This document shows, piece by piece, positions 18,599 through 45,978 of a stretch of 64,000 bases of DNA. The translations under genes were made by a program, and so were the position numbers. Within the stretch, counting starts at the first letter, position 1, and every line of letters begins with the position of its first letter. The DNA is from Thamnidium elegans (Eukaryota > Mucoromycota > Mucoromycetes > Mucorales > Mucoraceae), in assembly GCA_025201345.1 (NCBI GenBank), contig JAIXMG010000034.1:1-64000 (forward strand), in the 5' to 3' direction. Under the pieces are notes generated by a model. That model was not told where the DNA came from and did not search any database. It was given only the letters and a program-made list of their open reading frames with translations.

Positions 18599-18631
18599 TC
18601 ACAATACTTAGTTAATTTGTGTTTTTAACTA

Positions 18632-18643: not shown

Positions 18644-18645
18644 AT

Positions 18646-18786
18646 TGTCAGAGTTATTTTAATAGACAATACTTTTAGTTGTAAATATATAGTGGTAAAA
18701 AGATGACCTTTTATTGAGTTTATATTTTAAAGTAATTTATATCTAAATTGAAGTAGTACACAGCTTATTCTATTTTAGCTGTGACA
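18646..18786 (-). repeat. Gyp3 5' LTR (141 bp)
   Basis: Same sequence and borders as 13311-13451. Outside it, 18787-18831 is a short unannotated piece of older sequence ending at the Mer-B terminus. Confidence 0.92.
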
Positions 18787-22140: not shown

Positions 22141-22207
22141 CCGGAGTTGAACCTGCGTCATAACGGATGTTAAACGAGCAACTAACCACTAGACCAGTGA
22201 GATGGTG
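22141..22207 (-). other. tRNA-like (A box/B box) module in Mer-B
   Basis: On the minus strand an A-box TGGTCTAGTGG (22196-22186) and B-box GGTTCAACTCC (22153-22143) have tRNA-like spacing, followed by nine T residues at 22120-22112. The acceptor and T stems pair poorly, so this is a tRNA relic or Pol III-type promoter, not a working tRNA. It lies 484 bp from the transposon's 5' end and points in the transposase direction. Confidence 0.65.
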
Positions 22208-22691
22208 ATAGTTTTTTCTTTTTCATTAGTATAACAGTGACATATGCAGAATAATAAATCTTGAATTCCTCTCTTCCTAATGATCATAAACAGTTGAAAT
22301 TAATTTTATATCTAAATGTAGCTTTATTCAAGACCATAATTTTTATAGTTTGCCAAAATCTAAGTTTTACCGAAAGTTATAGCGCTGTTTGAAAATGACT
22401 GAATTAAAGCAATTTATTGGCTGTAAAATATATTTAAAAGGATGTGAACCTAATGCCACATTAGATTTAAATTTGTATGAATTAATTTTTATAACGATAT
22501 CTACGATATTGGCAGCGATATTATCATATCGGTCCATTTTTACTAAGCCATCTTGCGCAGTTTTAAAGATCAAACTTCCAAACCTTTTTAGGTGGCTGCG
22601 TAGAATTTTTACGCATCTCTCTGCAAAATTTCAGGCTCCTAATACCATTATTCCAATAGTTATTAGCTGGGACCTATCTTAAATGGTGGCC

Positions 22692-23446
22692 AAAGATATA
22701 TCAACTTTCATAATTGGACTCCTGAAAGAAGTTATTTATTCGCTGCTACTTTATTACGTGATCGCGCCGACGCCTGGTTTCGTACAATTGAACTAACTGA
22801 TGAAGCACCAACTACATGGTTAGAACTGAAAAGATTGATTACGGAATTCTTCCGTCCTGATAATGCTGCTCGTATTGCGCGTGATAAATTTGCTGCCTTA
22901 AAACAAACCGGAGATTTGGTAACATATATTAATGAACTTATGGATATTAAACTTGCTATCCCTACTAGGACAGATGAAGAAGCCTATGACAAGTTTATTC
23001 GTGGTTTATCGCTGAAGGCTATGCGCGCTCATATTCGTCAATATGAAGCTAACAATCTAAAGGAAGCCATTCACGCTGCATTGTCTTATGATAGCGCTCA
23101 AAAAGAAGAAGACTTTTACGCAAGGCCGCCACCAACCGCTAATCGTCGTGTTATTGATGATCCCATGGAACTTGACGCCATCGACCAAGGAAGATACAGT
23201 AATAACAATAACAACAACAGACAATATAACAATTACTCAAGATCAAATAATTATAACAACCCTCCTCGTTATAATAGCTACAGAAATAATAATAATGGAG
23301 GTGGTTCATATCGTAATAATAATAACTCTAGCTCTTTTACCTGTCATTATTGTCAAAAGGTGGGTCATATTAAACGAAATTGTCGTACTCGTATCGCTGA
23401 CATTAAACGATTGGATGATCAACACTCCAAGAAGGGTTTTCAGTGA
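22692..23446 (+). pseudogene. Gyp6 Gag, C-terminal part
   Basis: The reading frame enters at the Merlin junction (22692) and runs to TGA at 23444-23446. It shows RADAWFRTIEL, LITEFFRPDN, YDKFIRGLSLKAMRAHIRQ, an Asn/Tyr/Arg-rich linker and the CCHC knuckle CHYCQKVGHIKRNC. The upstream third of the gene is at 6469-6664 on the other strand. Only the separation from its start makes it a pseudogene; this part has no internal stop. Confidence 0.87.
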
Positions 23447-23476
23447 ACGTAGTTGAAGAACGGGAAGTTCAACTAC
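23434..23476 (+). promoter_or_regulatory. Gyp6 -1 frameshift signal (GGGTTTT plus hairpin)
   Basis: The heptamer G-GGT-TTT (23434-23440) is in the Gag frame with X-XXY-YYZ phasing, one codon before the Gag stop. After an 8-nt spacer, GTAGTTGAA (23449-23457) pairs perfectly with TTCAACTAC (23468-23476) around a 10-nt loop. The -1 frame opens into protease. Confidence 0.85.
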
Positions 23477-26850: not shown

Positions 26851-28040
26851 AATATACAATAGAAAATAAGTCCTTTAGAGTATTGATAAAAGTCTTAGTT
26901 GTGATTGTTTTTATTTTAGATGAAAAAGAAGGATGTATTTATACTAAAGGGGTTATACAATTAGCCATTCTAATTGTAGAGTAATAAAAGTCAGTTTTAA
27001 ATATCATAAGTATTATGGTTAATCCTTATTGATAATCCGATTGGTTTAAGCATTTATGCGCATTGTGTTTAATTGGTAGTTCTTATTATTAAATGGCAGT
27101 TGCCCTGTCATTGATAATAATAATGGATGATTGTTTAGGATAATTCTATATTGTATTATTAATCGTTTATGTTTAATAATGTTTAGTTTTGATGTGCTAT
27201 ATCGTAATAATAACGAAGATGAAGAGGGATATATAGTCTGTATATATCATATACCAGCATTTTAAATCATTAAAGTACACTTTAAATCACCCAAAATGCC
27301 TAGAATCAAGTAAAAATCGAATAAATTCAAAATGCACTAAAAGCTACCAGAATCAATTTAAAATGGTAAGGCTTTTACTTTAATATACCTGTGCATAAAG
27401 TACGTATATTTCTAAAAGAAAATATAGTTGTATCATCTATAGTTTTAAAGATATCGAATAAAGTAATTTACTTTGACACATTTTAGACGTCAACTGTGAG
27501 CTCCGATCATAAGATATAGACATATAAACTGCAGTTTATTAGTGCTGTTTTTTATTCCCTTTTCAATGATAGTAATTTGGAAACATTATCGGCATATTTG
27601 ACGAAGTTATGATTTTTTCGGAGAGCGAAAAAACAAACAAAATTATCGATATCAAGGTTAATAATTCATATAAATGTAAAATATTTATATCATATAAAAG
27701 ACAAAAACTAGCCGCTTAATATATATTTATTGTATGCTTATTAAAAGCTATTTACGAAATTATACTTTAATTTATCGTAATAATAAACAAAATTAGATAT
27801 ATACCTTTTCGTTGTAATTTTTATTTTGTAATTATAAAATTATTTTTCTACTAAGTAAAAACGTTTAAAATTTATTTCAATAGAATATACTGCGTTTTTC
27901 TTTTAAAATATATAAAATATATACCTCTAGCACATTTAGATTGAAAGTTGATACAATGTGGTTCCGTTGTGATAGATAATTTATAAGTTCTTTTAAAAGA
28001 GGAGATAGCCAGAGAATCTTCTAGTATATCCAGTTTTAAT
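26851..28040. other. AT-rich stretch without recognisable gene
   Basis: Begins TGAAATATAC right after the broken Gyp6 integrase, with TACA before it, and so may start with an LTR of an unrecognised element. No protein domain, tRNA or repeat pair is evident. I can only describe it as unclassified sequence, probably transposon-derived. Confidence 0.4.
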
Positions 28041-28530
28041 TAGTGAGCACCACGTCGTTTTTATATAAATATATATTATAAATATAAGGAGACGAATCCA
28101 AAGAGAGAGAAAATATAGTAAAGAAAAAAATATAATTGATAAAATAAAATATAAAAGTACAATGAAATATAGTATTAATATACTTGTTTTCAAGGGAATC
28201 AAAGGGAAAATAAAGTTACAAAAGTTATTATAAAGAAAAAATAATAGTATACTTGGTATAATACTTCAAGTTATAGTCAGTGAATTTATGTTATAATATG
28301 ATTGATTTTTATTTAAAATAATTTTTTTGGGGTTTTTATATCTGAATATATGTAATGGGATCGGTTATTCTTACCCATGATTTCTCGGAAAGAGAATAGA
28401 TGATACTAAGATTTTAATTCTATAATTTGTTTTGATAAAAAGAGTAAAGTATAATGAAAAAAATACTAAAGTTTTAGAATAAGATAATGTTACGAGCTGT
28501 GTTTTTCACACTCAATAAAGCACTTTTGTC
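28041..28530 (-). repeat. Degenerate Gyp1-type LTR with primer-binding site
   Basis: TGGTGCTCACTA (28052-28041, minus strand) marks the inner border. The adjoining sequence resembles the Gyp1 LTR in patches (a CAAGGGAAT motif, the TTTATATC region). The outer border near 28500-28530 is uncertain. Confidence 0.45.
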
Positions 28531-28559
28531 ACTGCTATTCTTGACTCTACTTACCCTGT

Positions 28560-29152
28560 TATAACAAGTATCCTTATTTTTATCTCTGTGTTACCTCTTT
28601 CTCTAAAAATCTGTTCTTGTACCTGAAACCTATACCGTTATACTTTCTATTTATATCTTCGCATATGTTACTCTTATTATTTACTTTTATATTCACTCTG
28701 CATATTTCTATATTGCTGTTACTCTTATCATTTACTTTTTTATTCTTTCTACATATTTCTATAACACTATTTTTAACATTGGACTACCTAGAACATAATG
28801 ATAGCAATCAATTTTATATCACTAACATTTATTCTAAATGTTTACCTTTTTGCCGAAAATTCACGGTTACTTCAATTTATATTTCATGGATACCTTGACA
28901 GGTATCGAAGGACGCTAATACCGAACCTTTTTAATATAAATACTCTTATTTTTATCTACTTAAATAAAACTTATCTATCTCTTATCTTATTTTCTGACTA
29001 TAAAACTATTCTATTAGTTTAAGTATTCTGTTTAATAGATCCCTTGAATTATTTAAATTGTACAATTCATTGTAAAGTTTTCCTTTCTCGTATTATAAAC
29101 CTTTTTATAATACTACACTACAGTTGGACAACTCAAAACCTGGTGCTCACTA
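28560..29152 (+). repeat. Degenerate Gyp8-type LTR with primer-binding site
   Basis: Ends at the primer-binding site TGGTGCTCACTA (29141-29152). It shares GATCCCTTGAAT and the ATTCATTGTAA region with the Gyp8 LTR at 56471-57079. The 5' border is unclear. Confidence 0.45.
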
Positions 29153-29486
29153 CATTTATTATTGAACTTTTCGTAAAATAATACTTTATAGTTTTTATTT
29201 TATTCCTATTATTTTCTACCTCTTTATTTACAAGCCACTACAAATCTAACTTGTAACAATAATTTAGTTTATCTGAAAGTCAAAAAAAAGTCGGAAGTGT
29301 TGTAAAAAGAATTATTAAAAAGTCAGAATTTGTCAGATTGTAACAAAGTGTCAGGTTCTCAGACACAAGTGTAACCTCAAATTATATTATAAATATTAAT
29401 TGTATACAAAATAAATAAAGATCATCTTTTATTCTCTTAATCAAATCTATTGTATATCCTATTTCAACTATTGTACCTTTAACTAT
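29153..29486. other. Retroelement leader / LTR remnant left of Gyp4
   Basis: Contains TCAGGTTCTCAGACACAAGTG (about 29351-29371), very like the start of the Gyp8 LTR at 56477 (one base different), so another LTR of that family probably begins here and is cut by Gyp4 at 29486. No open gene. Confidence 0.35.
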
Positions 29487-29627
29487 TGTCACAGCTAAAA
29501 TAGAATAAGCTGTGTACTACTTCAATTTAGATATAAATTACTTTAAAATATAAACTCAATAAAAGGTCATCTTTTTACCACTATATATTTACAACTAAAA
29601 GTATTGTCTATTAAAATAACTCTGACA
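29487..29627 (+). repeat. Gyp4 5' LTR (141 bp)
   Basis: TGTCACAG...CTCTGACA, same as the Gyp3 LTR. Confidence 0.92.
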
Positions 29628-29629
29628 AT

Positions 29630-29641
29630 TGGTAGCACCAG
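29630..29641 (+). other. Gyp4 primer-binding site
   Basis: TGGTAGCACCAG, two bases after the LTR. Confidence 0.78.
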
Positions 29642-29674
29642 TAGTTAAAAACACAAATTAACTAAGTATTGTGA

Positions 29675-32607
29675 ATGTCATCAGACGACTGTATTCAGAA
29701 AGAAATACTGGATCATCCGACACACATCATTCAAGAAATAATTAAATCAGCAAAAAGAAAGTTAAAACCAGAAGAGCAAAAGGAATTAGTGGAATTTATA
29801 ACATCCAGAGGAATTTTAATAGATACACCAAAAACATACATAAATTATACAAAATCAGAAAAAGTAACAATATATCAAGGATCAAGAACATTAATAGATC
29901 AATTCAAAGTATATAAAAATAAAAATAAAAACACTGTAATAGAAGAAGATATTGAAATGAATACAGAAAATAATTCAACAACAACAAGTAATAAAACTTT
30001 CTCTGAAGAAGAAGTTTTACGTTTAATTTCTGCAGCTATACAACAACAGCAGCAACAACCACAACAACATCAACAACAATTCAGTAATCAAGTACGAATT
30101 CCTACCCCCCTACATATGATGGTAGTAGAGATATTACAAAAATAAATAATTGGTACACTTCGGTGGAACATTATTTAAGTTTTTATAATTTTGAAAGAGC
30201 GCGTTGGGTATCCTATGCGATATCATTATTAACAGATCATGCTCGATTATGGTACTACCGTATGGCGCAACGATCTTCTCACGATTTATCCGACTGGGAA
30301 GTATTTAAAATTAGTATGGATATGGAATTCAAACCAAAGTATACATTACAATCAACAAGAGATAGATTATTTGAGTTAAAACAAACTTCATCTGTACAAC
30401 ATTACATTAAAGAATTTCAAGATGTATTACTCGAATTAGATATCACAGAAGATGAAGCTATGGATAAGTTTGCAAGAGGATTGAAAGATCGTGCTAGGGC
30501 ACATATATTACTAAAAGACCCCATTGATTTAGAAAGTATGTTTCATTGTGCACGAACGTTTGAGTCTGCCACACAATATGGTAAATCAACAAATAGTTTT
30601 AACCCAACAACATCAGCTATCGATGATCCCATGGATTTATCGGTTATTGAAATTAAAAAACAAAATCAACTACTTCTAAATTTATTAAAGCAACAACAAG
30701 GTTCTAACAACAATAGTTCTGGACAAAGAAGTAATAATAACTGTTTTTATTGCGATAAGATTGGACATAAAAAGGCTGAATGTAGAAATAAAAAATGGGA
30801 TGAGGATAGAGGTATTTTTCAATCTAAACGAAATAATCGTAATGACTATCGTACACAAAAACCTCGCAATAATTATAATAGTAACACTACTAATAATAAT
30901 AATAACTACCGAAAACCTAACAATTTTCGTCAGCAGATCAACGCATTATTAGATAGTTATGATCCATTAAGCAATAACACAAATAGTTATCAAACTAATA
31001 CTAACAATGATAACGATAATAAAAACCTAATTGATCTATCATCTTGTGATAATCAAGACTACTACTCTTATCCTATATTGTCACCACTATGGCCAGATAT
31101 TTAGTAAATGATACTGTTATTAGTGGACATAGTTACTAAATACGGAATATATTCCGCTATTTTCAGTAGAAAATACTCTTCCCCTTTTTTTTAGATTTTT
31201 TCTTTACCCGGGAATTAAAATATTAAAAAGGTGCATATCAATGTTCTATAACATATAGGTATATTACAGCGTCATGGTCGTTTAGATCTTAGTACTTACA
31301 TGTATAGAGGAATAAGTTAATTATCAAAGTACAAATAATATAGACAAATATATAAATTTATTTAAAGAAAAAAAAAAGAAAAAAAGACACTGCCACGTTA
31401 TCCAAAAAAAAAAAAAAAAATAGAGACGCTACGATAATAAAAAAAATTGATTTACTACATATATTCGTGCTTTCTTTTTTTCAGTATACTTAGGACTTAC
31501 TATATAAATTTCAGAATCACGTATAAAAAAAGAGGTCGTTTAGCCAAGCAGAAGGTGACTTTTTTTTTTCAACCACAGACGTAAGCGACCTTGCCTTTCC
31601 CCCCCCCCCTTTTTTTTTTCTTTTCCTTTTTTATATATACTTTTACTTCACTTTATACATAAAAGACTAATCTCAATGGTAACAATAAACTGAATCTCTT
31701 GAAATGGAACATAACTGTTTTTCTTCTTCTATAGTTCATTCGCCTCTATTGTATCCCTAAACGCTAAGTAAAGTATTTTTTTTTATTTTATTCCACTGCT
31801 AAAACATTTTTTTTTTTGTTCGTTTGCTTTTAGATATTTAACCATTGAATACTATTATGGTTCACCTTAAGGTACACATCTTTTAGTTATTTTTATTTAC
31901 CACCTATTAATATCTACAAACGTTTATATATTTACAGAGAAGAAACCGTTTAACCATATGTCTTGGTTTTTTATTTACTTGTAAGTTTGATAATAACACT
32001 ATTTATGTAAAACAGATTTTAACCATATATTATGTAGAAGTAAGTTGTTATAAATGGCTACTGAATAAAGAACAACGGCTACTAAATAAAAATCAATGGC
32101 TACTAAATAAAGAGCAATGGCTACTGAATAAACAGACTCATGGCGTATTTTTTAGTGGAATTTCTACTAAATAGGGTATATAAGATACCATTTCAATTTC
32201 AGTATCCAACTTACTGCGTTCAGTGGAAAATATACTGCATAATAAATCCAGTATACATGGATACTAAATTCAGTAACCATACTATCTCATAGTTTCCGAA
32301 TTTACAGTGTGCATATTTAGAAACACTTCTACTGTTATTAGTATAAAAAACAACTTTATCTGGCCACAGTGCACCTAACATTGCGCCGGAAACACATACT
32401 TTGTCATCTGCTGAAAAGTCATTTTTAAACAATGTTGATAATTCATCCAATGCGTTACCTTTATACAAAACTATGGTGGGTGGATCTAATTTCAAAATAT
32501 TAATCGACAGTGGTGCCAGTACAAATTATGTACATCCTAAATTACTTTCGCACGCTTTGACAGAAAGGGAAGTAGTCAATCAGGCAGTACAAAACTGCAG
32601 ATGGTAA
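29675..32607 (+). pseudogene. Gyp4 Gag-protease, frameshifted and interrupted
   Basis: The first frame, 29675-30145, is the Gag N terminus; it fails because a C-run at 30105-30110 has six Cs where Gyp3 and Gyp5 have seven. Gag resumes in frame at about 30112 (open to 31104 across the insertion edge), with the HARLWYYRM core and the knuckle CFYCDKIGHKKAEC. The coding sequence is then split by the 1287-bp CACTA-like element at 31085-32371 and continues at 32372-32607 with the retropepsin site ILIDSGASTNY. It ends at AVQNCRW-stop, the same one-base insertion as in Gyp3. Confidence 0.87.
31085..32371. mobile_element. CACTA-like non-autonomous DNA transposon, copy 1 (1287 bp)
   Basis: It starts CACTATGGCCAGATA and ends TATCTGGCCACAGTG, within Gyp4 Gag-protease. 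The 3-bp target duplication is CAC (31082-31084 and 32372-32374), and removing one copy restores the Gyp3 sequence. CACTA termini with a 3-bp duplication fit the CACTA/EnSpm superfamily. Inside are subterminal tandem repeats built on GGCTACTGAATAAA/GGCTACTAAATAAA (about 32050-32130), typical transposase-binding arrays, and long homopolymer tracts. No transposase is encoded. Confidence 0.8.
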
Positions 32608-32731
32608 CAAGACGAACATAAACAAAAAAATTACTTTTAGATTATTTTTAGGAAATAACCATGAACACCAAGAAGTAATCACTGCATATGTTTTTGAATC
32701 AAAATTTGATATTATCCTCGGTCGTAACTGG

Positions 32732-35700
32732 TTGAAAGAAACTAAGCCTAAACCTGACTGGTTTGATGACACATGGGAAGTTACTGATAAAAATACAACT
32801 ATTGTCACCAAAATATATCCTGTATCACCGCCAAAAGCATTACATAATATCAATACAATTAATCCACAATTAAAAACAAAGGAGACAACTAATATTGATT
32901 ATCTAGCATCAGCTACGCAAGTAGCTAGATGGCTTAAAAAAGACCAAATAACTGAATGTTTTGTAGTAAATTTTATAGATGAAAGTACAGGTAACCACGC
33001 AACAATTACACCAATATCACCTATTGATATGAAAGACATTCAACTTGATAAAGAATGGAAAGAAGAATTTGCAAAATTATTTCCTTATGCATTCAAAGGC
33101 GAAATAACTGAATTACCACCGAATAGACATACCAGAGATATAATTGTAACTGACCCTAAAGACGCTCCTCCTATTTTTCACCAACCGTATCGAATGAGTC
33201 CTCTAGAATTAGCGGAACTCAAAAAGCAATTAATGAATTTAGAAGAAAAAGGGTTGATAGTACCAACTGCATCACCTTATGGGTTCCCTATTTTATTTGT
33301 TCGAAAAGCAGGATCAAATAACGCTGATGGAACACCAAAATTAAGAATGTGTTGTGATTTTCGCAGTATTAACAAAATTACCATTGCTCAAAGAATACCA
33401 ATACCAAGAATAGATGAGTGTCTGGATCAATTGCATAACAGTACTTGTTTCTCACAAATTGATTTAATTGGAGCTTTTAATCAAGTTCGTTTATCTGAAT
33501 CAGATTCAATGAAAGCAACAATATCGCATCGTTTCGGTCAGCATAGATTTTTAGTTGCCCCTTTTGGATTAAAGAATTCTGGTCCATATTTTCAAGATGT
33601 CATCAACAAAGTTCTGAAGTCATTCGTAGATAAATTTGTAATAATATATGTTGATGATTTATTAGTATATTCAAAAAATGAAAGTGAACACAAAGAGCAT
33701 GTAAAACAGGTTTTACAAAAACTTGATGAAGCTAAATTTGTTATAAATATAAAGAAATCACATTTCAATATGAAAGAACTGACATTTTTAGGTTATCATA
33801 TATCAAAAAATGGTATCTCTCCTTCGCAACAAAAAACAGAAGCTATTAGTTTATGGCCTATTTCCACTAATGTTCAACAAGTACGTCAATTCCTTGGGCT
33901 TACCCAATATTATCGCAGATTCATTCCAAAGTTTGCGCATATTGCGTCTCCCCTTACAGATTTAACGGCGGGTACTGGTTATAAAACACGTGCTATAGAA
34001 TGGACACCACAATGTCAAAATGCTTTCGATTTATTAAAACAAAAATTGTCCTCTGCTCCAATATTACTTACTCCAGATATGAACAAACCATTCCGAATTG
34101 AATGTGATAGCTCTGATTTTACGGCAGGTGCGGTGTTACTTCAACAAGATCAAGATAATAATTGGAAACCATTGGCTTTTGAAAGTAAAAGATATAGTAA
34201 AGAAGAAAGAGTATACCCCGCTCAGGAACGTGAAATGTTAGCCATTCTGATTGCATTAAGAAAATGGAGATGTTTCATTGATGGTAAAGATTATGTTGTA
34301 TATACTGACCATCTCCCACTTAAATATTACAGAGATCAAAAACATCCAGTACCTCGTTTAGTACGATGGATGTCAGAAATAGAATTATATAACCCTAATA
34401 TTCAATATAAACCTGGTAAAGAGAATATTATACCCGATTTATTATCTCGTCGCGATGGACCCGATTGCGATCCTGCATCCACATCAGTACAACCAAAATA
34501 TTTATATAACTCTGAAATTAATAATAACAATAATAATACTAAACATTCTTTAAGTAAACCAGTTCAGTCAATCAGGGATGACCCTATTCAAGACTGGCCC
34601 TTACAATATTTTCGTAATGAAAACCAATGGCCTCAACTACTACAGAAAGAAAAATTTATAGTCAAAAATCAACATATATATAAACTAGTCAAAAATTCAA
34701 AAACAAATGAAAGCATGGAATTAAAGTTTATATCTTTTCATCAACGTGCTGATTTTATTAACAATTTCCACATAGCATACGGTCATCTTAGTCAACTGTC
34801 AATATACCACCAATTAAAAAATAGAATTTGGTGGCCGGGTATACAACAAGATATAATTGAATACTTGAAATCCTGTGCTCAATGTCAACTCGCAAGTCGT
34901 TCGGAAAAGAATATTCACCATTCACCAATGAAACCTCTTGATATTCTTCCTGCTTTTTCGCGTTGGCATCTTGATTTTATAGGAGAATTACCAACAACAA
35001 AAAATGAAAATAGATGGATACTTGTGGCTGTTGATTATTCGACTAATTGGCCTATTATACGTGCATTAAAAAATGCAACTGGTGATGAAATCGTACGATT
35101 TATATATGAAGAAATTGTACTAAAATTTGGTAACCCCGTAGAGATCTTTACAGATAGAGGTGCCAACTTTATGTCTAAAGTATTGAAGCAATACATGAAT
35201 AAAATCAGGTCAAAGCATACCTTTACGAGTGCTTTTCATCCAAGAAGTAATTCAAAGTGTGAAAGACTTAACCAAGTAATCAAGAATATGTTAAAGAAGT
35301 ATGTTAATGGTGATGTTCATAGCTGGGACGAATATATTGATACAGTTACGTTTGCTTGCCGTATTCGAAAACATACTACAACGGGACATAGTCCATTTTT
35401 CCTCGTATATGGTACTCAGCCAAGGATTCCTGGAGACTTTCATAGACCTTATATGAATGATATAACCGAATTTGATGCCAACCTGATAACTGAAGATGCT
35501 TTAACTCGTATTCGTAACCTTAGAGAAGCTAGATTCTTAGCAGAAGAAAATTTACGGAACCAAGGTATAAAGGATAAGGAAAGATGGGATAAAATAATAA
35601 AGGGTAAAGAAACACAAGTATTTAGTAAAAACGATTTTGTACTATTACGACATGAATCTAAAAAAGGTCTGGAATACAACTGGATGGGACCTTATCAAAT

Positions 35701-35860
35701 TATTAACTGCAATCTGGATTTCAATGTCTACCAGGTCAAAGAATTAGAAGGAAAAGTTTATAACTCATGGGTACATACAGACCGATTAAAACCAATATCA
35801 ATCAATAATAACAACTTAACAACTAGTTGGTATATTCCACGTATTGCAAGAGCACAATAA
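32732..35860 (+). CDS. Gyp4 RT-RNase H-integrase polyprotein
   Basis: An intact 1042-residue frame, almost the same as in Gyp3 except for a six-residue deletion (around LQQNK) between RNase H and integrase and a few substitutions. Motifs in order: RT with IYVDDLLVYSK, RNase H with ECDSSDFTAG and YTDHLPLKYY, integrase zinc module ending CAQC, catalytic WHLDFIG, FTDRGANF and SKCERLN, and the GPY module. It lies one base out of frame with Gag-protease. The host element cannot currently complete replication because its polypurine tract and 3' LTR are split by an insertion. Confidence 0.9.
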   Translation: MKETKPKPDWFDDTWEVTDKNTTIVTKIYPVSPPKALHNINTINPQLKTKETTNIDYLASATQVARWLKKDQITECFVVNFIDESTGNHATITPISPIDMKDIQLDKEWKEEFAKLFPYAFKGEITELPPNRHTRDIIVTDPKDAPPIFHQPYRMSPLELAELKKQLMNLEEKGLIVPTASPYGFPILFVRKAGSNNADGTPKLRMCCDFRSINKITIAQRIPIPRIDECLDQLHNSTCFSQIDLIGAFNQVRLSESDSMKATISHRFGQHRFLVAPFGLKNSGPYFQDVINKVLKSFVDKFVIIYVDDLLVYSKNESEHKEHVKQVLQKLDEAKFVINIKKSHFNMKELTFLGYHISKNGISPSQQKTEAISLWPISTNVQQVRQFLGLTQYYRRFIPKFAHIASPLTDLTAGTGYKTRAIEWTPQCQNAFDLLKQKLSSAPILLTPDMNKPFRIECDSSDFTAGAVLLQQDQDNNWKPLAFESKRYSKEERVYPAQEREMLAILIALRKWRCFIDGKDYVVYTDHLPLKYYRDQKHPVPRLVRWMSEIELYNPNIQYKPGKENIIPDLLSRRDGPDCDPASTSVQPKYLYNSEINNNNNNTKHSLSKPVQSIRDDPIQDWPLQYFRNENQWPQLLQKEKFIVKNQHIYKLVKNSKTNESMELKFISFHQRADFINNFHIAYGHLSQLSIYHQLKNRIWWPGIQQDIIEYLKSCAQCQLASRSEKNIHHSPMKPLDILPAFSRWHLDFIGELPTTKNENRWILVAVDYSTNWPIIRALKNATGDEIVRFIYEEIVLKFGNPVEIFTDRGANFMSKVLKQYMNKIRSKHTFTSAFHPRSNSKCERLNQVIKNMLKKYVNGDVHSWDEYIDTVTFACRIRKHTTTGHSPFFLVYGTQPRIPGDFHRPYMNDITEFDANLITEDALTRIRNLREARFLAEENLRNQGIKDKERWDKIIKGKETQVFSKNDFVLLRHESKKGLEYNWMGPYQIINCNLDFNVYQVKELEGKVYNSWVHTDRLKPISINNNNLTTSWYIPRIARAQ

Positions 35861-35872
35861 CAATGAAACAAC

Positions 35873-35876
<4 letters not shown>

Positions 35877-35905
<29 letters not shown>
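35877..35905 (+). repeat. Oligo-A tract after Gyp4 pol
   Basis: About 29 A residues just past the pol stop; Gyp3 has the equivalent tract with a different length (13630-13653 on the plus strand as T). Confidence 0.8.
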
Positions 35906-35908
<3 letters not shown>

Positions 35909-36064
35909 AAAATTCAATTCAGTCAAATTAATTCAATCAAACAGCAATTTATTATCAAAACAATACTTAAAGATTCTTTACTCTTCGTTATATTATCACT
36001 CTAACCTAATCTTTTGTATTTTTTTTCCTCTGTTATCCAATACTTGACTTTAGACTAGTAAAAC

Positions 36065-36080
36065 TTTAGGGAGGGGATAT
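36065..36080 (+). other. Gyp4 polypurine tract
   Basis: TTTAGGGAGGGGATAT, which in Gyp3 directly abuts the 3' LTR. Here it is cut off from the LTR by the insertion at 36084. Confidence 0.75.
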
Positions 36081-36083
36081 TGT

Positions 36084-37147
36084 GGTTAAAAGGTCATATA
36101 TGGCCACCGCTGGATCTGGAATAATTGAGAGGGTTAAAAAATTACTATAAAAGGCGATTTTTCTTGTGTAACATAGTTTGTGTGACCATCGTGTAACATA
36201 CTGCCAGAATCATTTTTGAGAGTTTTTGGTTCATTTCAATTTTTTCGCTTATAGTCACATTATTTATAATCAACAGGCCTCTATCGTACGTCGTTTGTTA
36301 AAGAAGCCAATTAGAAACATAATACGCATCGCTGTTACAATTGACCTTCTAAAGAAACTATTTATATTTCCAAATTGCTCATCCACTATTAGATGGTTAA
36401 CATTGTCCATGTTTCATATTAAGTGGGTAAGCGCTTATTTAACTTATTTTGTATATAAGACACACACTTTTTCATTAATAAAAAAAACAATCGATTCCTA
36501 GTCTGATAATTATCTATTTATTTTACTTTTTTATTTTATTTTTTTGATATAACTTTTATTTTATAACCGTTAATATCACAGGCAACCTATTTTTATTCTG
36601 ATAACTATTTAGCTATATTACTTTTTTACTTCTGTTTTTAATACTACTTATTAGTAACTAATTCTAACTTTATTACTATTATTATTACTGTAATAGTATC
36701 TATATACAACGATAAAACAACTAACGAAATCGATAGAGCGGTTTTTAACCTGAAATAAATCCCGGGATTTGCCTCCGTTGTAAGTACTAATTAACAGCAA
36801 TACTTATTTTTAGCCAAGAACCACTATTTGCATATAAAAAGATGGCTTATACAAGTAGTCGATCAATCTACCATGTTTTACGATTTATTTGACGAAATCC
36901 TAACATCAAAACTCACTTATTTTGGCAAGACATCCATATAGAGGACTTCTGGGCTGATTTCAAGTAAGTCATGTGACTATAAGCGAAAAAATTGAAATGA
37001 ACCAAAAACTCTCAAAAATGATTCTGGCAGTATGTTACACGATGGTCACACAAACTATGTTACACAAGAAAAATCGCCTTGTATAGTAATTTTTTAACCC
37101 TCTCAATTATTCCAGATCCAGCGGTGGCCATATATGACCTAAGATCC
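36084..37147. mobile_element. Long-TIR non-autonomous DNA transposon, copy 1 (1064 bp)
   Basis: It begins GGTTAAAAGGTCATATATGG and ends, inverted, GGATCTTAGGTCATATATGG. The inverted repeats continue nearly perfectly for about 175 bp. The 8-bp target duplication is GATATTGT (36076-36083 and 37148-37155), and one copy restores the polypurine-LTR junction of Gyp3. No transposase motif is visible; short frames inside are AT-rich and unconvincing. The superfamily is open: hAT, P and Merlin all make 8-bp duplications. Confidence 0.85.
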
Positions 37148-37152
37148 GATAT

Positions 37153-37293
37153 TGTCACAGCTAAAATAGAATAAGCTGTGTACTACTTCAATTTAGATAT
37201 AAATTACTTTAAAATATAAACTCAATAAAAGGTCATCTTTTTGCCACTATATATTTACAACTAAAAGTGTTGTCTATTAAAATAACTCTGACA
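37153..37293 (+). repeat. Gyp4 3' LTR (141 bp)
   Basis: Same as the 5' LTR except for about two substitutions (TTTTTGCC for TTTTTACC; AAAGTGTTG for AAAGTATTG). Confidence 0.92.
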
Positions 37294-37297
37294 CTAT

Positions 37298-37608
37298 TAG
37301 CGTGAGCACGACAAAAGTTATAAGCAAAAAACCAAAATAAAAAATGCGAAAAAATAGCAAATTTTTTAAAAATAAAAAATTGATAAAACGTTTTCCGGGA
37401 ATTGAACCGGGACCATCATAATGCTGAGCTGATGCTCTACAGGTTGAACTAGGGAGACGAGTTGTTATTATTACGAATTTACCATCAATTAGATTATGTA
37501 CAATATTTTTACAATCTTTTGGGTTTTTGGTTAACTGTGGCCTAAGTAATCGGAAAAATTTATTTTTATTATTACGCACATTAGTGAGAATTAAATGTCT
37601 TGCAAATG
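37298..37608 (-). mobile_element. Mer-G, inner fragment with tRNA-like module
   Basis: Lies between the Gyp4 3' LTR and Mer-F. Assigned to a Merlin element because, with Mer-F removed, it joins the terminal fragment at 45979-46334 and places its tRNA-like module about 502 bp from that terminus, as in Mer-B, Mer-C and Mer-F. No transposase part survives here. Confidence 0.6.
37388..37462 (-). other. tRNA-like (A box/B box) module in Mer-G
   Basis: On the minus strand TAGTTCAACCTG (37451-37440) resembles an A box and GGTTCAATTCC (37408-37398) is a good B box. A 5-bp anticodon-like stem CATCA/TGATG encloses an oversized 11-nt loop, and T4 and T6 runs follow. Not a canonical tRNA. Confidence 0.6.
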
Positions 37609-38146
37609 GGCTAATGTATGAGATAGGTCCCAGGAGCCTAGAGGTCGTAATAATAAACCTAACGGAGTATAAATAATAGATTTATAGGTCAAAAAGTTTA
37701 TGCGGATGCAATGATAGTATTTATATCCTGCTATCTTTAAAACTCCGTCCGTGACGGCGGAATTCTGTGTAGTTGGTATACATATAGCATCATAACTCAT
37801 CTATTATAATTTCAATTTGGATGGGACTAGCACCATTCGAAAGAAAAAATGTTTTTATATTTATAACTAATTTTAAAATTTTAAGCTTATTAAATCAATG
37901 TGTAGTAAAATAAATTTGAAAATTGTCACACTAGTAAAACCCAATGCGAAAGACGTATGCGAGGTTATAAGCTTTCGGTAACGAGTCATCAGCTGCAATT
38001 AATTTATTAGATAAGAAGACTATAGCTAAATTGGTTTAAAGTGATTTTATTTAAAGTATAAAAGAAGTAGGAAAATTGGGAAATGATGTTTTTAGGTAGT
38101 TATTACAGTATATAAAAAAAAAAAAAGTAATTACATAGTTGTTTTA

Positions 38147-39749
38147 CTATTGTAAGTTACGGTTATTTGGTCTACGACGATGAGGTATTTCAACATAAGT
38201 AACATCATTAGTTTCGTCGTCTTCATCTTCTTCATTAATATCAAAGTTACGACGACGATCATTCCACACTTGAAAACTTCTCAATTCTCTTTGCTCACGT
38301 AATAGTTGTTCATCTGGTGTTTCACCTGTTTCTGCTTCTGTAAACATATACGGATCCAATTGGTCACTATTATTATCTGATGAGAATGATACCTCCTTCA
38401 TCATACGAAACATTCCTCCTATCAAATCATTTCTGTTTTCTACTGTCCATAAATGCTCCAATAATTTTCCAGGGGCATCTTTTTTATTACGATGACGAGG
38501 TGCAATGTTCGATTTCAAGTCTCTCCAAATACTTTCAATAACATTCGTATGTAGTCTTCCTGATGCTGGAACTTGGGTAATTCTACTACTAGTTGTATTT
38601 TGATCCAAAGTAGCAAATCCTTCCGAATGATTAACAACTTGATGACCACGAAAAAATAACTCATTACTGTCAATGCTTTCTTGTTCGAAATTAAATCCAT
38701 TTAAAGACATTCTAGAAACAACCCTGTTTTGAATATCAAGACTATGAAGACCATTGTAAGCTCTCCATCCATCTGATCTAATAATTGATCCAGGTTTACA
38801 ATACTTATAAATAAGTGGCAAAAGGGTAACAGCAGTACGGTCGGGAACAGTAATAAATATTCTTCTACCAGCCTTGTAACGGTACCTTTGTTCATTAATA
38901 CCAAGAGTGTTGTCAACATAGGTATATGTTTGAGGTTGACCTACGGGGTAGTTCAAACACTCTACCATACCAAAAATCCAGACACCTACGAATTAAAACA
39001 CATGTTAATTTATTTTTATTTTTATTTTACATGTTAAAATGTTACCTTCTACGCGACTTCCAGTTTCATTTTTTCTTTTACCAAGTTTAGATTCATCTAT
39101 CTGAATATGATGACAGTCAGGGGTACTACCAAGAAGATTATCACTGGTTAAAACATATTTGTTATAGTCTGAAAGCATGAGAACTTGAATATCCTTAAAT
39201 ATTTGACCTAGTGTAGTTGCAGCTAATGTTCTAGTATTGAATATTTTTTGCATATTTTCACCACGAATATAATCCATTGCTGCACCAAGAATTTTATGCG
39301 AGTCTGCCTTTCTTCTATACCAGAATGAATTTTTTGTAATAGTTGTTCTAATAGCATTAATGTGACCTCTACATTCATAGTAATACTGATTACGAGTTAC
39401 GCGATAATATCTCTGCAATTGCAATACACAACCACCACTTCCACATGTCATATCTTCTCTATCAAATACACCCTTAGTCTCGATAAGATATCTATGCGGT
39501 TGTAATATAAAAAAAATTCAGTATAATATTAAGCTATATTTTAAATAATACTAACTCCCAGGTGCTCTCTTCCGAAGATAAAAAATTGGCTTCAATATTT
39601 TTGTCACCAGAAATAGGTACACGTGATCCCCATTGACGTCTAGTTAAGGTTGTTGGTGCTTGAGGTATAGGTAAAATACCAGCAATGCTTGCTGCGCGAT
39701 TACGATTATTGCGAGTGCTACGACGAATGTTCGAATTAGAAGTTGACAT
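38147..39749 (-). CDS. Mer-F transposase (ISXO2-like / DDE_Tnp_IS1595 family), two introns
   Basis: Exons 39556-39749, 39046-39491 and 38147-38985 are separated by introns of 64 nt (GTTAGT...CATAG) and 60 nt (GTAACA...CGTAG); the spliced length is 1479 nt, 492 residues. The first intron is at the same place as in the other Merlin genes (after the conserved Thr-Trp codons); the second, inside the catalytic core after SRVEG, is unique here. The protein shows a Cys motif CGSGGC...YYYEC, catalytic IQIDESKLGKRK, IRSDGWRAY and HTNVIESIW, and an acidic C terminus. Intact frame, so possibly functional. Confidence 0.85.
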
Positions 39750-40559
39750 TACTGAATTAACAAGTTAAATGTCGGTCAAGATTAATTAAAGATGTGTAAT
39801 TGTAAATGGAATGTCGAAATGAATTGTCGAGTAGATTTAAAAAAATAAAAATAACAGAGTTTTAGTTCAAAGTATAAATGAATGTGAAAAAGTATGAATA
39901 AAAGTTAGACTTACCAGAAAGAAAACAATTTATTTATAATTAAGATTGAAGAAAAACTTTTCTTCTTTATTTTATTAAAGTAAAACGAGTCACATCGAAG
40001 TTTAAGCCAGGTAACTATTAATTGCAGTCAGTTTTGTCACTATTCTAGTCAAAAATTCCGGGTACCATTTAAGATAGGGATTAATTGTAGCCGTTTGGGA
40101 TATAAAAATAGTAGGGATTTGAAATTTGGAGAGATGATACATTGTAATTTTCCGCATCTTTTAAAGTAACTTTCGTGACTGTCAAATTATTATTGCGTGC
40201 GCTATAGGCCAAAATGTGTCAATTAAATAGGGTTAAATTCAAAAGCGCGTTAGGCTATGATTCAAAAAGCTTCAGATTTTCACACAATGCATTAATAAAG
40301 TTTCCACATATTCTCCAAAGTTTTCAAATTAATTCTAGCTATATTTCGGTCTCCGCGAGCGTTAAAAGTCTAAGATGCGCTGGGACAGCATAAAAACTAT
40401 TAAATACGGTTTGACAGTTAATTACGATAAAAATAGCTATATTTAAAATTATTAAATTTTAAGAAATTAATTTTATGTAATAAAAGAAGTCGTAATTGCC
40501 AAAAAACATTTTAACCAGCTTGGATATTTTTAATTTATTTTATAAGTTTCAAAAGTTTA

Positions 40560-40628
40560 TCTGTGTAGCTCGGTTTGTAGAGCGTCGAATTAGCAATCTT
40601 CGTGTCGCTGGTTCGACCCCGTACGTCA
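40560..40628 (+). other. tRNA-like (A box/B box) module in Mer-C
   Basis: TAGCTCGGTTTGTAGAGC (from 40566) gives an A box and a perfect GCTC/GAGC D stem. A loop containing AGC follows, then the B box GGTTCGACCCC (40610-40620), with T4 at 40631-40634 and a T8 run at 40652-40659. It resembles a tRNA-Ala(AGC), but acceptor and T stems are poor. It starts 500 bp from the transposon 5' end, in the transposase direction. Confidence 0.68.
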
Positions 40629-41890
40629 ACTTTTGTAAAAAAAAAATTTGCTTTTTTTTCTAAGATTTTTGATATATTTATTTTTTTGAACTGGTCATAA
40701 CTTTGCGAATTTTTATTTTTTTGAAATTCTGATTTGATATTCTTTTCTTTGGTAAAATTCTACATAAGTTCACATTAATAGTCTAGGTAATTTACTTGTA
40801 AAAAAAGAAATTGTTATTATTTTTCAAAAAAAGATGACATACTCAAATGATATTAAATTTACTTTGTATTTGCTTTAAAATGTGGAATAAATTTTAAAAA
40901 CTTTTTAAGGATAGCTGTAAATAATTTTGATAAAGCTATTAATAATTTTAACGCGATTTCTATTTATTTCAAGTTAGTATCATAATTTTTGGTGGAGATA
41001 TTAAGGTTTTAATCATTATCTTCATTTTTTTAAATGCAAATTACTCAATCAATTTTTAAGCTAAAGTCTTTTTTAAATGCTCAAATAAAAGAAAACAAAC
41101 TGATTAAGACAATGTTATATTTATAGCTGAGACAGTTGCGAATTAAGGTATTTAAATGCTATAAAAAATAAGCATTTTTTATTTTTGTTTCTGCTATGAA
41201 TTCTGAACAAACAGTCAGAACTACACAATTTTAGTTTTAAAACATGCGTAATTAACGGTTCTATTACGTATATAGGTTTTACTACGATTGAAAAAGGAAA
41301 TTGGTGCTGATATTACCAAAAATTAAAAATGACGGATAAAATATGGTCCGAACTTATGATACAATAACGATAGGCGAATTTTAAAAATAGTTTTAAAAAC
41401 TAAGCTAATTTTCATATATACTTATCACTAATACATTCTTTATTTTATTTATATAATTCACTGTAAAAAGCAAAAAATAGTTCACCCAATTTCTTAATTT
41501 CGTTCCTTTCGCAGTAAAAATCACATAATAACCCCTTTTTTTGGTCTATAAACTTATTTTTTGCTTACAGAGTGCTATATATAAGTTTAAAAACACTATA
41601 TTTAAGAGCTTTATTTTTTATAGCTCCTCAAAATATTGATTTTTCGGCTAGCGACAAGCATAATCAAATCCACGCAGTTTAAATTAAAGAGTGACTACTT
41701 TAAATTTATTTATTTAGGGTAGGGGGAGCCTAGATATTTTCTTCTTCTTTCTTTAACTTTTTATCAATCATGTAAGTGCCAAAAAAAAAAAAAAAACATA
41801 ATGCCATTAACCCATTGTTAATTTTATGTTTTGTTTATACATTTACTATACATTAGTTTTTTGTCGTTAATCTTAAGCATCTTATTTTAA

Positions 41891-43611
41891 ATGTCTTCAA
41901 TTATTCCTCGCTCTCGTGGTCGTGTTACTGGTCAAGTAGTTTCCACTTATCGTAGTCGCGTTTTAGATGGTGATGTCTTGGAATTAGCAAGAATGATTAC
42001 TCTCGAAAGAGGTGACATCTGGACGTAAGTTATTTTAAGCTACTATTATACCTACTTTAACAACTAACATTAAAATTTTCCGTGTTTAGTGTTCTTAAGG
42101 ACCATTTTAGGGCATTCGATAGACAACCTGACGCTCGCTGTGGTATTCAAGGCTGTATTCACTACCCTACCTTATGGTGGCGAGAGGAAAGAGAGCAATG
42201 GTACTTGTATTGTGGCGGAGGTTACTCTATCGGCGATGATGGTTCAACCGTTGGTCATAACGGACCTTTACGCCGTACTATTACGAACGGTTCAATGTTT
42301 TATCGTAAGAAAATGATCTTGCAGTACATGATATCTGCTATGTACCAATTCTTCCAAGGTGGGCGTATCACTGATGTTCTTAGAGGCCATAGTATCTCTC
42401 CTAACACGTTGTCTCAGCTATTGCTTGATTGCCAGCTTTTGATGTTATCTGATTATGAGAGCCATAATCTTGGTGAGAATCATCTTCTCGGAAACAACCC
42501 CAGGTGTCATCATATCCAGATCGACGAGTCAAAACTTGGTAAGCGTAAACATGGTCGTGGTCGTCCCGTCGAAGGTATCTGGGTGTTTGGAATGGTCGAA
42601 GCTCTTATTCCGGAGGATCCCAACGGACGTACGTATGAGTATACGGATTTTCGCACTGGTGCTACTGAGACTCGCTACCATTTTGAAGCTGGCAACCGCA
42701 TCTTTTTAACTGTACCTAACCGTACTGCTGCCACCCTCTTGCCAATTATTTACAAATTCTGTAAGTCCGGAACTGTTATCCGTTCCGATGGTTGGCGCGC
42801 TTATCGTAATCTTCATCGTCCTTCTCATGTAGACAATGGTCAATTGGACTTTAATGGCGAGAACAACCAGCTTTTTTTTAGAGCTCATCAAGTCGTTAAT
42901 CACAGTCAGGGATTTACTACAGTTGATCAAGTAACTACCAATCCGGACGTATCCTTAACTCCTGTTTCAGGTCATTTACACACAAACATAATTGAGTGTC
43001 TTTGGAGAGACTTGAAGGTCTTTATTGGGCCAAGATACCGTAACTCTAAGGATTGTCCTGGTAAGATTGTAGAGTATCTGTGGCGCTATGCCAATAGGGG
43101 TAGCTTCATCAATGGCATGAAGAGGTGTATTCGTGAGGTGCAGGTAGTACATGACGGTACTGTTGGTGGCGAAGGCTCGGTACCTTTTACAGCAGGTCAA
43201 GATGGCGAAGACCTTGAGGCTCAAGAGAGAAGGTTAAGACGAGAGGAACGTATGTTCGATCAGTGGGTTTCTAGAAGAAGAGAACGTGATGAAGACGAAG
43301 CAGTTCTATCAGAATCTGATGGTGATAATGATGACCCTCGCGCAGATGAGGATTATATCCCAGCAAGAGGAAGGGTGCCAAGACCTACCAATTTGGAGGA
43401 GCCCACTGGAGATGCAAACCAGCAGGTAGAAGACCAAAATGTTCGTCGTTCAAGCCGTGTTCCTGTTGCTGGTCGCGGTCGTGGTCGAGTAGGAAGACCA
43501 GCTCGTCAAGCAGCTAATCCTGCCAGTGTAGCTAGCCGTGGAAGACCTTCCAGAGGCTCCCGAGGTAGGGGCCGTCCTAGAGGCAGTGCTTCCCGTAATA
43601 CTCGCTCTTAA
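41891..43611 (+). CDS. Mer-C transposase (ISXO2-like / DDE_Tnp_IS1595 family)
   Basis: Exon 1 41891-42024, intron 42025-42089 (65 nt, GTAAGT...TTTAG), exon 2 42090-43611; 551 residues. The N terminus has SRGRVTGQV, then C-G-I-x-G-C with a distant Y-x-C-G that may bind zinc. The catalytic core has IQIDESKLGKRK (Asp190), IRSDGWRAY (Asp278) and HTNIIECLW (Glu347). The C terminus is acidic, then changes to basic RGRGR/GRPRG repeats, which are AT-hook-like and should bind AT-rich DNA. A leader intron (41772-41856) precedes the start. No defect is visible. Confidence 0.88.
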
Positions 43612-45417
43612 TCTACTTTTTTTTTCTAATAAAACAATGCTAAAACAACATTATATTATTTTTGGATCAATAAAACTTTATATATTTTTACATGTTAGTC
43701 GAGTAACTTTATACGGCGATCAATACCGCAACCTATTTTTTCAGGTATAATGCTAGCTGTATTAGGGCCTGTACTGCTACGTATACTACCTATAGTACAA
43801 CCTAAAAAGGGTCAATATAGCAGACCAAGCTGAGGACATATTGGGGTTTACTGTATGTACGCTAGTTTAACATATTAGGTACGGTGATTTATCTACCATT
43901 TAACTAACGAGTTTTTAAGTTAAACTAATTTTAAATTGCTCTAAAATAATCTAAAGATGTGTAGCTTTTCAAAAAATTAATTTATATTCTGATATTAGAA
44001 TTTTTTACATCGTCAAACTTCTATATCACGTGTTTTTCGGCCGTTTTTAAGTTATGTGCTGTTTTTAACGGCCCATATCTCCACCAATAATTAACATAAA
44101 AAGGCCGTTCTTACGTTATTTTTAGTTTCAAAGCATCTACTTTTAGATAAAAGGATATTTTTGCGGAACCCAAAATTTTTGTCAGGGGCCATATTATACA
44201 CAGTCATATTATACCTCAAAATAGGGGTATTTCGACATTTTGACGAACGATTACTCAGAAACTAGCTTATGAAAATTGCTCAAATTTAAAGATTAGTTTT
44301 TAAAAATACTAAACTAACGTTCATTAAAATTTCATATTGATCGGAGTTAAATTGAAACCACCACTGAATTTAAACCTATTTAATTGACACATTTTGGCCT
44401 ATAGCGCACGCAATAATAATTTGACAGTCACGAAAGTTACTTTAAAAGATGCGGAAAATTACAATGTATCATCTCTCCAAATTTCAAATTCCTACTATTT
44501 TTATATCCCAAACGGCTACAATTAATCCCTATCTTAATTATTAGCCAAAATTCCAGTTTTACAGGGTTTTTTTTTCGCTTAAAGTACTACAAAAGATATA
44601 TTTATTGCTTTTATAGGACTTTAGCTAAAGCAGCTGTATAAAATAACCATATTTGAGCCAATAGGAGTCAAAATTCACGCAAAAAGCAAGAGTTTACATC
44701 AAAAAAGCTTTTTTTTTATTTTGCGATATAGACGATAAGAAGCATTTCTGTAATATTTTCTAAATTGATATGCTTCTTATGTACGTTTTGATTATACTTT
44801 TACTAAATTTGCGTAAATATTGATTGATTTATTAGCTGTTCCATTTTCGCAAAATCTCACCCCTTTTTTTAAAAATATCAATTTCTTCGTCAATATTTCA
44901 GTTAGGATTAAACTTTAAGTATCTTTATGCTTCTTTTCTATAGTTCTTTTGGAAAAATTTTAATAGAACTTCAAAGACAGAAAACTGAGTAAGTTAACTA
45001 ACCCAAAAAAACGGCCAAAATCACGTGATTTTGTTATTACTCGCCAATAATGCCGCTAAACAGACCCTAAGTAAGATTATTCAAAAGATATTAGATTCGA
45101 ACATCCTGTTAGCTATTTTTATAATGCGTATATACATTTTTTAAAAAAAATTAATTATTTTGACATAGTTTTGTATAATATTTACTATATTGATAAAATA
45201 CGATTTACTATTTTAGTATATTAGGTACTTTTTTTTGTACTAAGTAAGTTTTCTTAAGAGTACTATATAATATAGTAGAGATAATATTAAACGTTTTCAT
45301 CAAAAAATAAAGAGGATAGATTAATTATTACAGGAGTAATTAAAGTTTTAGTTCAGAAAAAAAATTGAATTTAGAGAAAAAAAACGCAAATAAAAATATT
45401 TAGCAAAATGCTTTTAC

Positions 45418-45484
45418 GCGGATTCGAACGAGCAATATCGAGTTGATGAATCCAACGAATATACCACCGGACTATATGAGAGTT
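45418..45484 (-). other. tRNA-like (A box/B box) module in Mer-F
   Basis: On the minus strand TAGTCCGGTGG (45474-45464) is an A box and GTTCGAATCC (45429-45420) nearly a full B box; T8 at 45384-45377 could terminate transcription. The cloverleaf is degenerate. It lies 486 bp from the Mer-F 5' terminus. Confidence 0.62.
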
Positions 45485-45978
45485 GTTGGAATTTAGCACT
45501 TTATGTATTTAATGGCACATTTATGTTTTCAGTTTTTGAACAATATATGTACGAGGCGTAGCTAAGTTGGAATACTTGCAATTGAAAAGCAGAATAAAGC
45601 TTATTCTTTAGGGTATCGTATAATTTATTCTTATAGTTTTCACTTAAAAGTCGGAGATACAGTAAGTTTCATTTTAGTCGTTAATTAAAGCTCCGAGACA
45701 AACAAAAATTTGTTTACAGATTTATGAATTTAGCGTTCACTCGGTTGCAAAATTTGGAGTTCTTAGATGCATTTTTCACGGAGTTATGAGGATTATAACT
45801 TATTTTTAACCTATTCCACTTAATAAAAATCTCTGGGAATGAATTTTAAAAATTTCTAAATAATACCACCAAATCCGTAATTTTTTTCTGCACATTTTCA
45901 GTATTTTAATTTATCTCTAACTTTTCCTGGTCGCCCACAATCCTTACGGGACCTATCTCATACAAGACCCTTCAAATG

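Follow-up and report, generated by a model that had tools for sequence, protein, structure and literature searches.

Thamnidium elegans (Mucoromycota) carries Merlin-type DNA transposons, some of them nested in one another, in the 64-kb stretch of contig JAIXMG010000034.1 analyzed here (the window; positions refer to it unless a contig (C) or locus (L) label is given). Six long Merlin families (B, C, DE, F, G, and H) share an A-box/B-box pair at one place, ~490–505 bp inside the 5′ terminus. We consider it probable (roughly 0.8) that this long lineage carries an internal type 2 promoter of RNA polymerase III (Pol III), which derives from a tRNA gene and assembles TFIIIC and TFIIIB, and that the occupied promoter is what benefits the transposon. 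The modules very probably do assemble these factors, because long terminal repeat (LTR) retrotransposons that favor tRNA genes have inserted beside them at the distances seen at tRNA genes.

Position and Score of the Box Pair

The position-1 equivalent of the module is 489 (B), 499 (C), 489 (F), 506 (G), 500 (DE), and 494 bp (H) from the 5′ terminus, and the module is read in the transposase direction in all six families, ~1.7–2.1 kb ahead of the transposase domain. Position 8 of the A box is 493–513 bp from the terminus in the window modules, namely those of Mer-B (22141–22207, minus strand, score 35.0), Mer-C (40560–40628, plus strand, 24.0), Mer-F (45418–45484, minus strand, 20.6), and Mer-G (37388–37462, minus strand, 24.8). 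An earlier note, made from the letters of the window alone, had reported tRNA-like modules at these four sites and on these strands, at a fixed distance from the 5′ end and in the transposase direction; all of this was recovered (its 486 bp for F is counted from base 45966), and DE and H are oriented likewise. Its removal of the nested Mer-F from Mer-G was also sound, as G matches cover 46333–45971 (the Mer-G 5′ end, minus strand, q1–363 of the 1,398-bp G query, to which q positions of this family refer) and 37608–37314 (the middle part with the module, minus strand, q356–650), with an 8-bp overlap as for a Merlin duplication.

The boxes are separated by 43–44 bp in B, C, F, G, and DE, a tRNA-like spacing, and by 35 bp in H. 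The former five pairs are strong, while the H pair is degenerate with a poor B box (scores of 10.6 in L003 and 6.0 in L045). The scorer, built from A-box and B-box consensus motifs, gives the two real tRNA genes of the window 23.8 and 22.2. Mer-E, the DE-family element (61602–64000, minus strand), is cut by the window edge, and its 5′ end and module were found in the next stretch of contig (L041, C28:65446–65526) at the same distance and with a score of 31.9, which confirms outside the window a prediction made from the window elements. When each element's own 900 bp were resampled by a first-order Markov model, with the A box 400–600 bp from the terminus on the sense strand, the observed score was reached in 0, 0, 1, 0, and 0 of 1000 resamples for B, C, F, G, and DE, respectively.

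ARAGORN found none of the modules, nor did the Rfam tRNA model RF00005 (cmscan) at E ≤10 in the window or at E ≤0.5 in 17 loci, and the only window tRNAs called by the two are tRNA-Met (13163–13235) and tRNA-Trp (56377–56449). In all six families, the first run of at least five T's follows the B box by 19–32 bp, in agreement with the T-runs noted earlier, which is weak evidence in such AT-rich DNA, and the motif ACTTTTG(T/C)AAAAAA is common to C and DE directly past the module.

Retrotransposon Insertions at tRNA Genes and at the Modules

The tRNA-Met gene of the window (plus strand; called by both ARAGORN and Rfam) served as host control. The 5′ LTR of an LTR1 retrotransposon (7224–13152, minus strand, 513-bp LTRs) ends 10 bp upstream of it, and an LTR2 retrotransposon (13311–18789, minus strand) lies 75 bp downstream. 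Overall, LTR1 is found 9–18 bp upstream and LTR2 (144-bp LTRs) 43–128 bp downstream of tRNA genes. A tRNA gene was 9–13 bp away in 13 of 20 further LTR1 5′ flanks, drawn from 46 listed matches that count both LTRs of one element. Among the other seven, one has a tRNA-Glu 10 bp from the other side, one is an insertion in a Merlin G copy, one has, at ~12 bp, a weak box pair not recognized as a tRNA (L052, score 16.2, tentative), and four are without a Pol III gene (one read on one side; two partial LTRs). By coordinates alone, seven LTR1 copies, including the window copy, are 10–18 bp upstream of tRNA genes. For LTR2, a tRNA gene was 43–107 bp away in 10 of 20 flanks (one with an unassigned anticodon), and up to 128 bp away by coordinates. 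Relatives of LTR3 had a tRNA ~12–14 bp away in two of four copies examined, and 3 of the 16 LTR5 flanks scanned had one at ~7–12 bp.

Five independent LTR insertions were identified ~10–15 bp upstream of Merlin modules, measured from the LTR edge to the position-1 equivalent: LTR1 at 11 bp from the DE module of C41 (in both arms of a palindromic inverted duplication, counted as one event), LTR1 at 12 bp from the G module of C32, LTR5 at 10 bp from that of C41:114k, LTR4 at ~13–15 bp from that of C34, and an LTR3-like solo LTR at 10 bp from the F module of C17. Merlin sequence stands on both sides in the C17 copy of F and the C32 and C34 copies of G, with overlaps fitting a 4–5 bp duplication; the two sides of the C41 insertions were placed from alignment ends. 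A B copy on C1, where LTR3 is joined at the expected 5′ edge of the module and the module and ~400 bp have been lost, was left out of the five.

Three downstream insertions were found 21–84 bp past G-family B boxes, in C32 (q587–590), C34 (q624–628), and the window (q645–650). The C32 insert starts with a sequence that is also present directly downstream of several host tRNA genes. The window insert, LTR6, is an LTR-type sequence (27950–37313, with edges TGTCGTGC and TGTATCA in module sense) that breaks Mer-G at q650, 79–84 bp past the B box, and Mer-G continues beyond it at 27277–27949 (minus strand, q645–1317). Nested in LTR6 is an LTR2 retrotransposon (29484–37293, plus strand, 144-bp LTRs) whose 3′ LTR stops 20 bp short of the LTR6 edge and 94 bp short of the Mer-G module; because LTR6 sequence lies in between, this LTR2 was dropped as a direct neighbor of Mer-G and LTR6 was counted.

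The six G insertions are confined to q488–q650, ~160 bp around the box pair; Mer-F is inserted at q356–363, and the matches of three broken G copies also stop at q1317–1366. Near flanks were read for 33 of the 39 module copies, five further C copies align unbroken, and a C copy at C31:18617 is truncated at q368. An upstream insertion is present in 6 of these 33 copies (two being the C41 palindrome), and no other break was seen in the upstream stretch read at 20 module loci.

In Dictyostelium, TRE5-A integration has served as evidence that Pol III complexes form on box pairs that do not belong to tRNA genes (PMC5391098), and by the same logic the Merlin modules would have assembled TFIIIC and TFIIIB. 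The LTR elements of T. elegans presumably use the same factors as Ty3. Judging from these footprints, the earlier suggestion of a Pol III start, taken as assembly of TFIIIC and TFIIIB, appears well supported; that of a retained functional Pol III module, whose box scores are high despite drift, is also supported.

Several side observations were made on the same retrotransposons. At L052 (C17:407879–408119), LTR1 is upstream of the weak box pair, LTR2 is on the opposite side, and Rfam has no match; the pair is possibly a Pol III gene other than a tRNA gene. LTR2 is also downstream of tRNA genes at L069–L074, L081, L082, L084, and L088. According to a 2018 review (PMC5911963), downstream insertion occurs in dictyostelids only, and the fungal LTR2 case may be new. 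An AT-rich sequence (CACTATTCTTTTAGTCAAAATTG...) is present at 13243–13307, L061, L065, L082, L088, L112, L078, and L007, directly downstream of several tRNA genes, and also at L091, where it borders a 5.4-kb insertion on the downstream side of a Merlin G module; it is probably the end of another element targeting the 3′ side of Pol III genes. Contigs C9 and C25 both end at F position 476, where C17 has its LTR insertion, and an unassembled insertion at the module is possible there. Contig C41 contains a large inverted duplication at ~14.7–25 kb, centered near 19842, with the DE element and its LTR1 at the module in both arms.

Distribution of the Module among Merlin Copies

At least 39 module copies were found in the genome by one search with all six modules. 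All 5′ ends that align unbroken do so through the module in C (8/8), DE (6/6), F (6/6), and G (5/5), and terminus and module are both present also in three B copies (one with ~220 extra bp elsewhere) and two H copies. A listed module was located ≤2.6 kb upstream in 27 of the 51 transposase matches of the module-bearing lineage. Two short Merlin families, one of 298 aa (1,982 bp, 8-bp duplications) and one of 302 aa (~1.9 kb), are without the module, and these are the best PF12762 matches; the module as a universal Merlin trait was therefore rejected. The earlier statement that every visible 5′ end has the module thus holds for the window and not for every Merlin of the genome.

The modules are not real tRNA genes or pseudogenes outside elements, since terminal inverted repeats (TIRs) enclose them and the element copies carry them along. 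Nor can they be assigned to short interspersed nuclear elements (SINEs), as they sit within TIR elements encoding a transposase.

Sequence Drift and Probable tRNA Ancestry

The modules are 48–62% identical to their best-matching host tRNAs (in a comparison set of 45 partly redundant sequences, which does not include all isotypes) and 46–62% identical to each other; the best-matching tRNA is not the same from family to family. These values do not support a recent separate capture of host tRNAs by each family, and together with the negative ARAGORN and RF00005 results they agree with the earlier view that the modules are not host tRNAs. When the boxes were kept and the rest was shuffled, the observed best tRNA match was reached, per 100 trials, 5 times for B, 0 for C, 40 for F, 1 for G, 1 for DE, and 3 for H. 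When six host tRNAs were subjected to 40% random substitution, they reached the module's score with a frequency of 0 (B), 0.004 (C), 0.018 (F), 0.004 (G), 0 (DE), and 0.18 (H).

C and DE agree at 14/25 positions in the interval separating the boxes, vs 72–74% identity in the 490 bp ahead. With the exception of C/DE, the 5′ regions of different families showed no similarity in a window self-comparison at E ≤1e-10. Because the boxes are kept while the intervening sequence drifts, selection would seem to act on promoter binding and not on the RNA sequence. Predicted module RNAs were not clearly more stable than Markov resamples (folding z ~0 to −1.3), just as the earlier note had described poor folding, and a structured RNA is not supported.

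Merlin Elements and Other Features of the Window

Mer-B (18832–22691, minus strand, 3.9 kb) has TIRs at 22575–22684 and 18839–18948 (93%), no matching target duplication at its ends, and a transposase frame at 20728–19370 (minus strand), which was scanned for PF12762 in the identical copy Mer-A. Mer-A (3220–6459, plus strand; transposase frame 4563–5921 with PF12762) lacks the 5′ part, module included. Mer-C (40060–44546, plus strand, 4.5 kb; transposase frame 42061–43611, plus strand, PF12762) is a complete element nested in Mer-F, with 188-bp TIRs and the 8-bp duplication AAAATTCC. Mer-F (37609–45970, minus strand) sits in turn in Mer-G. The 8-bp overlap of F in G, like the TIR and duplication of C, is of the Merlin type. 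PF12762 (DDE_Tnp_IS1595) scored above the cut-off in the frames of Mer-A (= Mer-B), C, F, and a DE-type copy at 46664, and has 77 matches genome-wide. Relatives of the C transposase show 70–71% identity over about half its length in T. elegans and are more distant in Mucor and Rhizopus; a scan of viral contigs for close relatives confirmed none.

Three of five nested Merlin-in-Merlin insertions are ≤~150 bp from a module (L003, L042, and window 37608 and 45971), which hints that Merlin nesting prefers open DNA near modules. A Tc1/mariner-type element at 47550–49206 (DDE_3, HTH_Tnp_Tc3_2), with 225-bp inverted repeats, is nested in a DE-type Merlin. A ~1.1–1.3 kb repeat with inverted ends of ~170 bp is present at 36080–37147 and 60298–61596, and several loci have copies. 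At L083 (C3:907604–907863), a strong box pair from ~123 with a score of 26.7 and no ARAGORN tRNA call is flanked by a repeat on one side and an LTR2 copy on the other; it may represent either an additional Merlin family's module or a different Pol III gene.

Proposed Mechanism and Alternatives

The box pair stands at one place in all six families, and the retrotransposon footprints strongly indicate that the module assembles TFIIIC and TFIIIB. Pol III would then be recruited and would produce a short RNA of ~85–110 nt ending in a T-run. The benefit, which is the least certain step, may be the occupied promoter itself rather than the RNA sequence: a nucleosome-free boundary could protect transposase expression against silencing or against read-through coming from the flank. 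A role as a boundary or as open chromatin ahead of the transposase gene appears to fit best, and the TFIIIC-bound insulator proposed in the earlier note would lie close to it.

A number of observations weigh against this reading. No listed module was found ≤2.6 kb upstream in 24 of the 51 lineage transposase matches. Those resolved are 5′-deficient or interrupted: four C copies start at q805, two C-like copies match from q1776 only (5′ half different or missing), the window copy at 47204 matches from q1676 only, Mer-A is without its 5′ part, the F copy of the window has Mer-C inserted in it, a C45 copy of F starts at q591, directly past the module, and the B copy on C1 has lost it. A piece at C32:289672 consists of only 117 bp of a B-type 5′ end, without a module. 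The footprints are unevenly distributed, with six of the eight in four G copies and upstream insertions in 0/9 C copies and 1/7 F copies. As for the reporters, 13 of the 16 LTR5 flanks scanned, many of which border other repeats, showed no tRNA close by, a preference of LTR4 for tRNA genes was not seen, and none was established for LTR6. The near-constant distance to the terminus may stem from common ancestry with few indels, and the B box of H is degenerate. Base by base, the C and DE boxes (A 12/19, B 8/11) are not better kept than the 490 bp ahead, and neutral divergence of 15% + 15% yielded an equally good C/DE pair in 32 of 1200 trials, so that this pair alone is weak. Finally, the top score in ten resampled 64-kb windows was 25.2, and C, G, and F are not outstanding by score alone.

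This overlap, together with a retrotransposon coding stretch at 8266 that scores 23.2, is what speaks for chance A-box/B-box matches in AT-rich repeats. Single scores are not decisive, but the recurrence at one place across six families, each of five with ≤1 of 1000 resamples, makes the modules significant, and the confirmed DE prediction and the integration footprints, which refute chance short of coincidence, leave us to regard it as extremely improbable. It is far less improbable, though still unlikely, that a tRNA gene captured by an ancestral Merlin is a mere passenger, whose boxes recruit TFIIIB with no use to the transposon. The tRNA-derived look beyond the boxes in several families, the decaying H module, and the retrotransposon insertions, which resemble a cost, would suit a passenger, but 40% random substitution leaves scores well below those of B, C, G, and DE, box scores are kept where the 5′ regions beyond C/DE are dissimilar, and the module is present in all uninterrupted 5′ ends. 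We give a similarly low weight to a short Pol III RNA working in trans as a tRNA mimic, antisense, or regulatory RNA, e.g., on transposase expression or against silencing. The T-runs past the B box in six families, the orientation in the transposase direction, and the motif past the module in C and DE are consistent with it, but the stretch between the boxes is less conserved between C and DE than the sequence ahead of the module, folding is no better than in resamples, and the best-matching host tRNA varies by family; the tRNA-mimic RNA of the earlier note thus finds no support in conservation or folding.

Insulator use of B boxes is known in other systems, and a site of the extra-TFIIIC type, bound by TFIIIC alone without TFIIIB or Pol III, would explain a B box conserved in five families with a drifting interior. 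We judge it quite improbable at the modules, where an A box is present and LTRs have inserted ~10–15 bp upstream, as at tRNA genes; according to PMC5391098, Ty3 served to confirm that TFIIIB is absent where a B box stands alone, and TRE5-A targets such solo B boxes very inefficiently. Slightly less probable still is a targeting device that would bring Merlin to Pol III genes or to the modules of other Merlins. Insertions of F in G ~145 bp upstream of the module, of G in DE ~50 bp upstream, and of B in H ~88 bp past the B box would fit such a device, but C is inserted in F ~865 bp off, a 298-aa Merlin is inserted in F at q1007–1014, and no tRNA gene abuts the terminus in the 18 of 22 5′ stretches that show terminus and flank (0/18 informative termini), and the targeting device put forward earlier is not supported. 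A Merlin at L112 is ~209 bp from a tRNA-Pro, but this Merlin is inside an LTR1 copy.

Comparison with Known Systems and Implications

Retroposons such as SINEs are the usual carriers of Pol III promoters, which transposase-coding DNA transposons do not typically have. The tRNA-derived SINEs have an internal A-box/B-box promoter and move through RNA, without TIRs and transposase; the promoter type is alike, but the Merlin promoter would lie inside a transposase-coding DNA element. The long elements share the transposase domain, TIRs, and 8-bp target duplications of the Merlin/IS1016 type, and Mer-B and Mer-C appear to differ from it by their length and by the putative internal Pol III promoter. 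Merlin has been recorded in Mucoromycota (PMC8101967), and the words tRNA, polymerase III, and promoter are absent from the main text of that paper, which deals with Merlin distribution. No Pol III module in Merlin was found among the matches listed in a literature search by title and abstract opening, with subscription papers mostly outside its coverage.

The A-box/B-box loci of the Dictyostelium rDNA element likewise have no tRNA context and were exposed by a tRNA-targeting retrotransposon that inserts upstream of them as far off as at tRNA genes (PMC5391098); however, those loci are on the rDNA palindrome, whereas the Merlin modules are a fixed part of a DNA transposon and have been struck by several LTR families. 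A former tRNA gene that has been kept as a site for Pol III factors and is targeted by retrotransposons is also known, but as a host locus, whereas the Merlin module is mobile, multicopy, and at a set place. LTR1 resembles Ty3 and DGLT-A in inserting mostly 9–13 bp upstream, and LTR2 resembles Skipper-2 in inserting 43–128 bp downstream (PMC5911963, PMC5006619). Compared with these known elements, LTR1 and LTR2 serve here as reporters and are not the finding.

In its widest form, the idea is that the whole lineage co-opted a tRNA gene as a mobile Pol III chromatin boundary ahead of the transposase gene and that tRNA-seeking retrotransposons use the modules as spare tRNA genes. We put this forward only tentatively; if it is true, one class of mobile element provides another with places to land, and a transposon can copy and multiply the safe haven that a different element targets. 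That the box pair persists across diverged families and the remainder of the module drifts would point to selection on factor binding, not on RNA. The modules may offer a defined multicopy setting for asking whether Pol III complexes shield transposons from silencing, and the archived insertions could be used as a sequence-only assay of TFIIIB occupancy in fungi without chromatin immunoprecipitation data.

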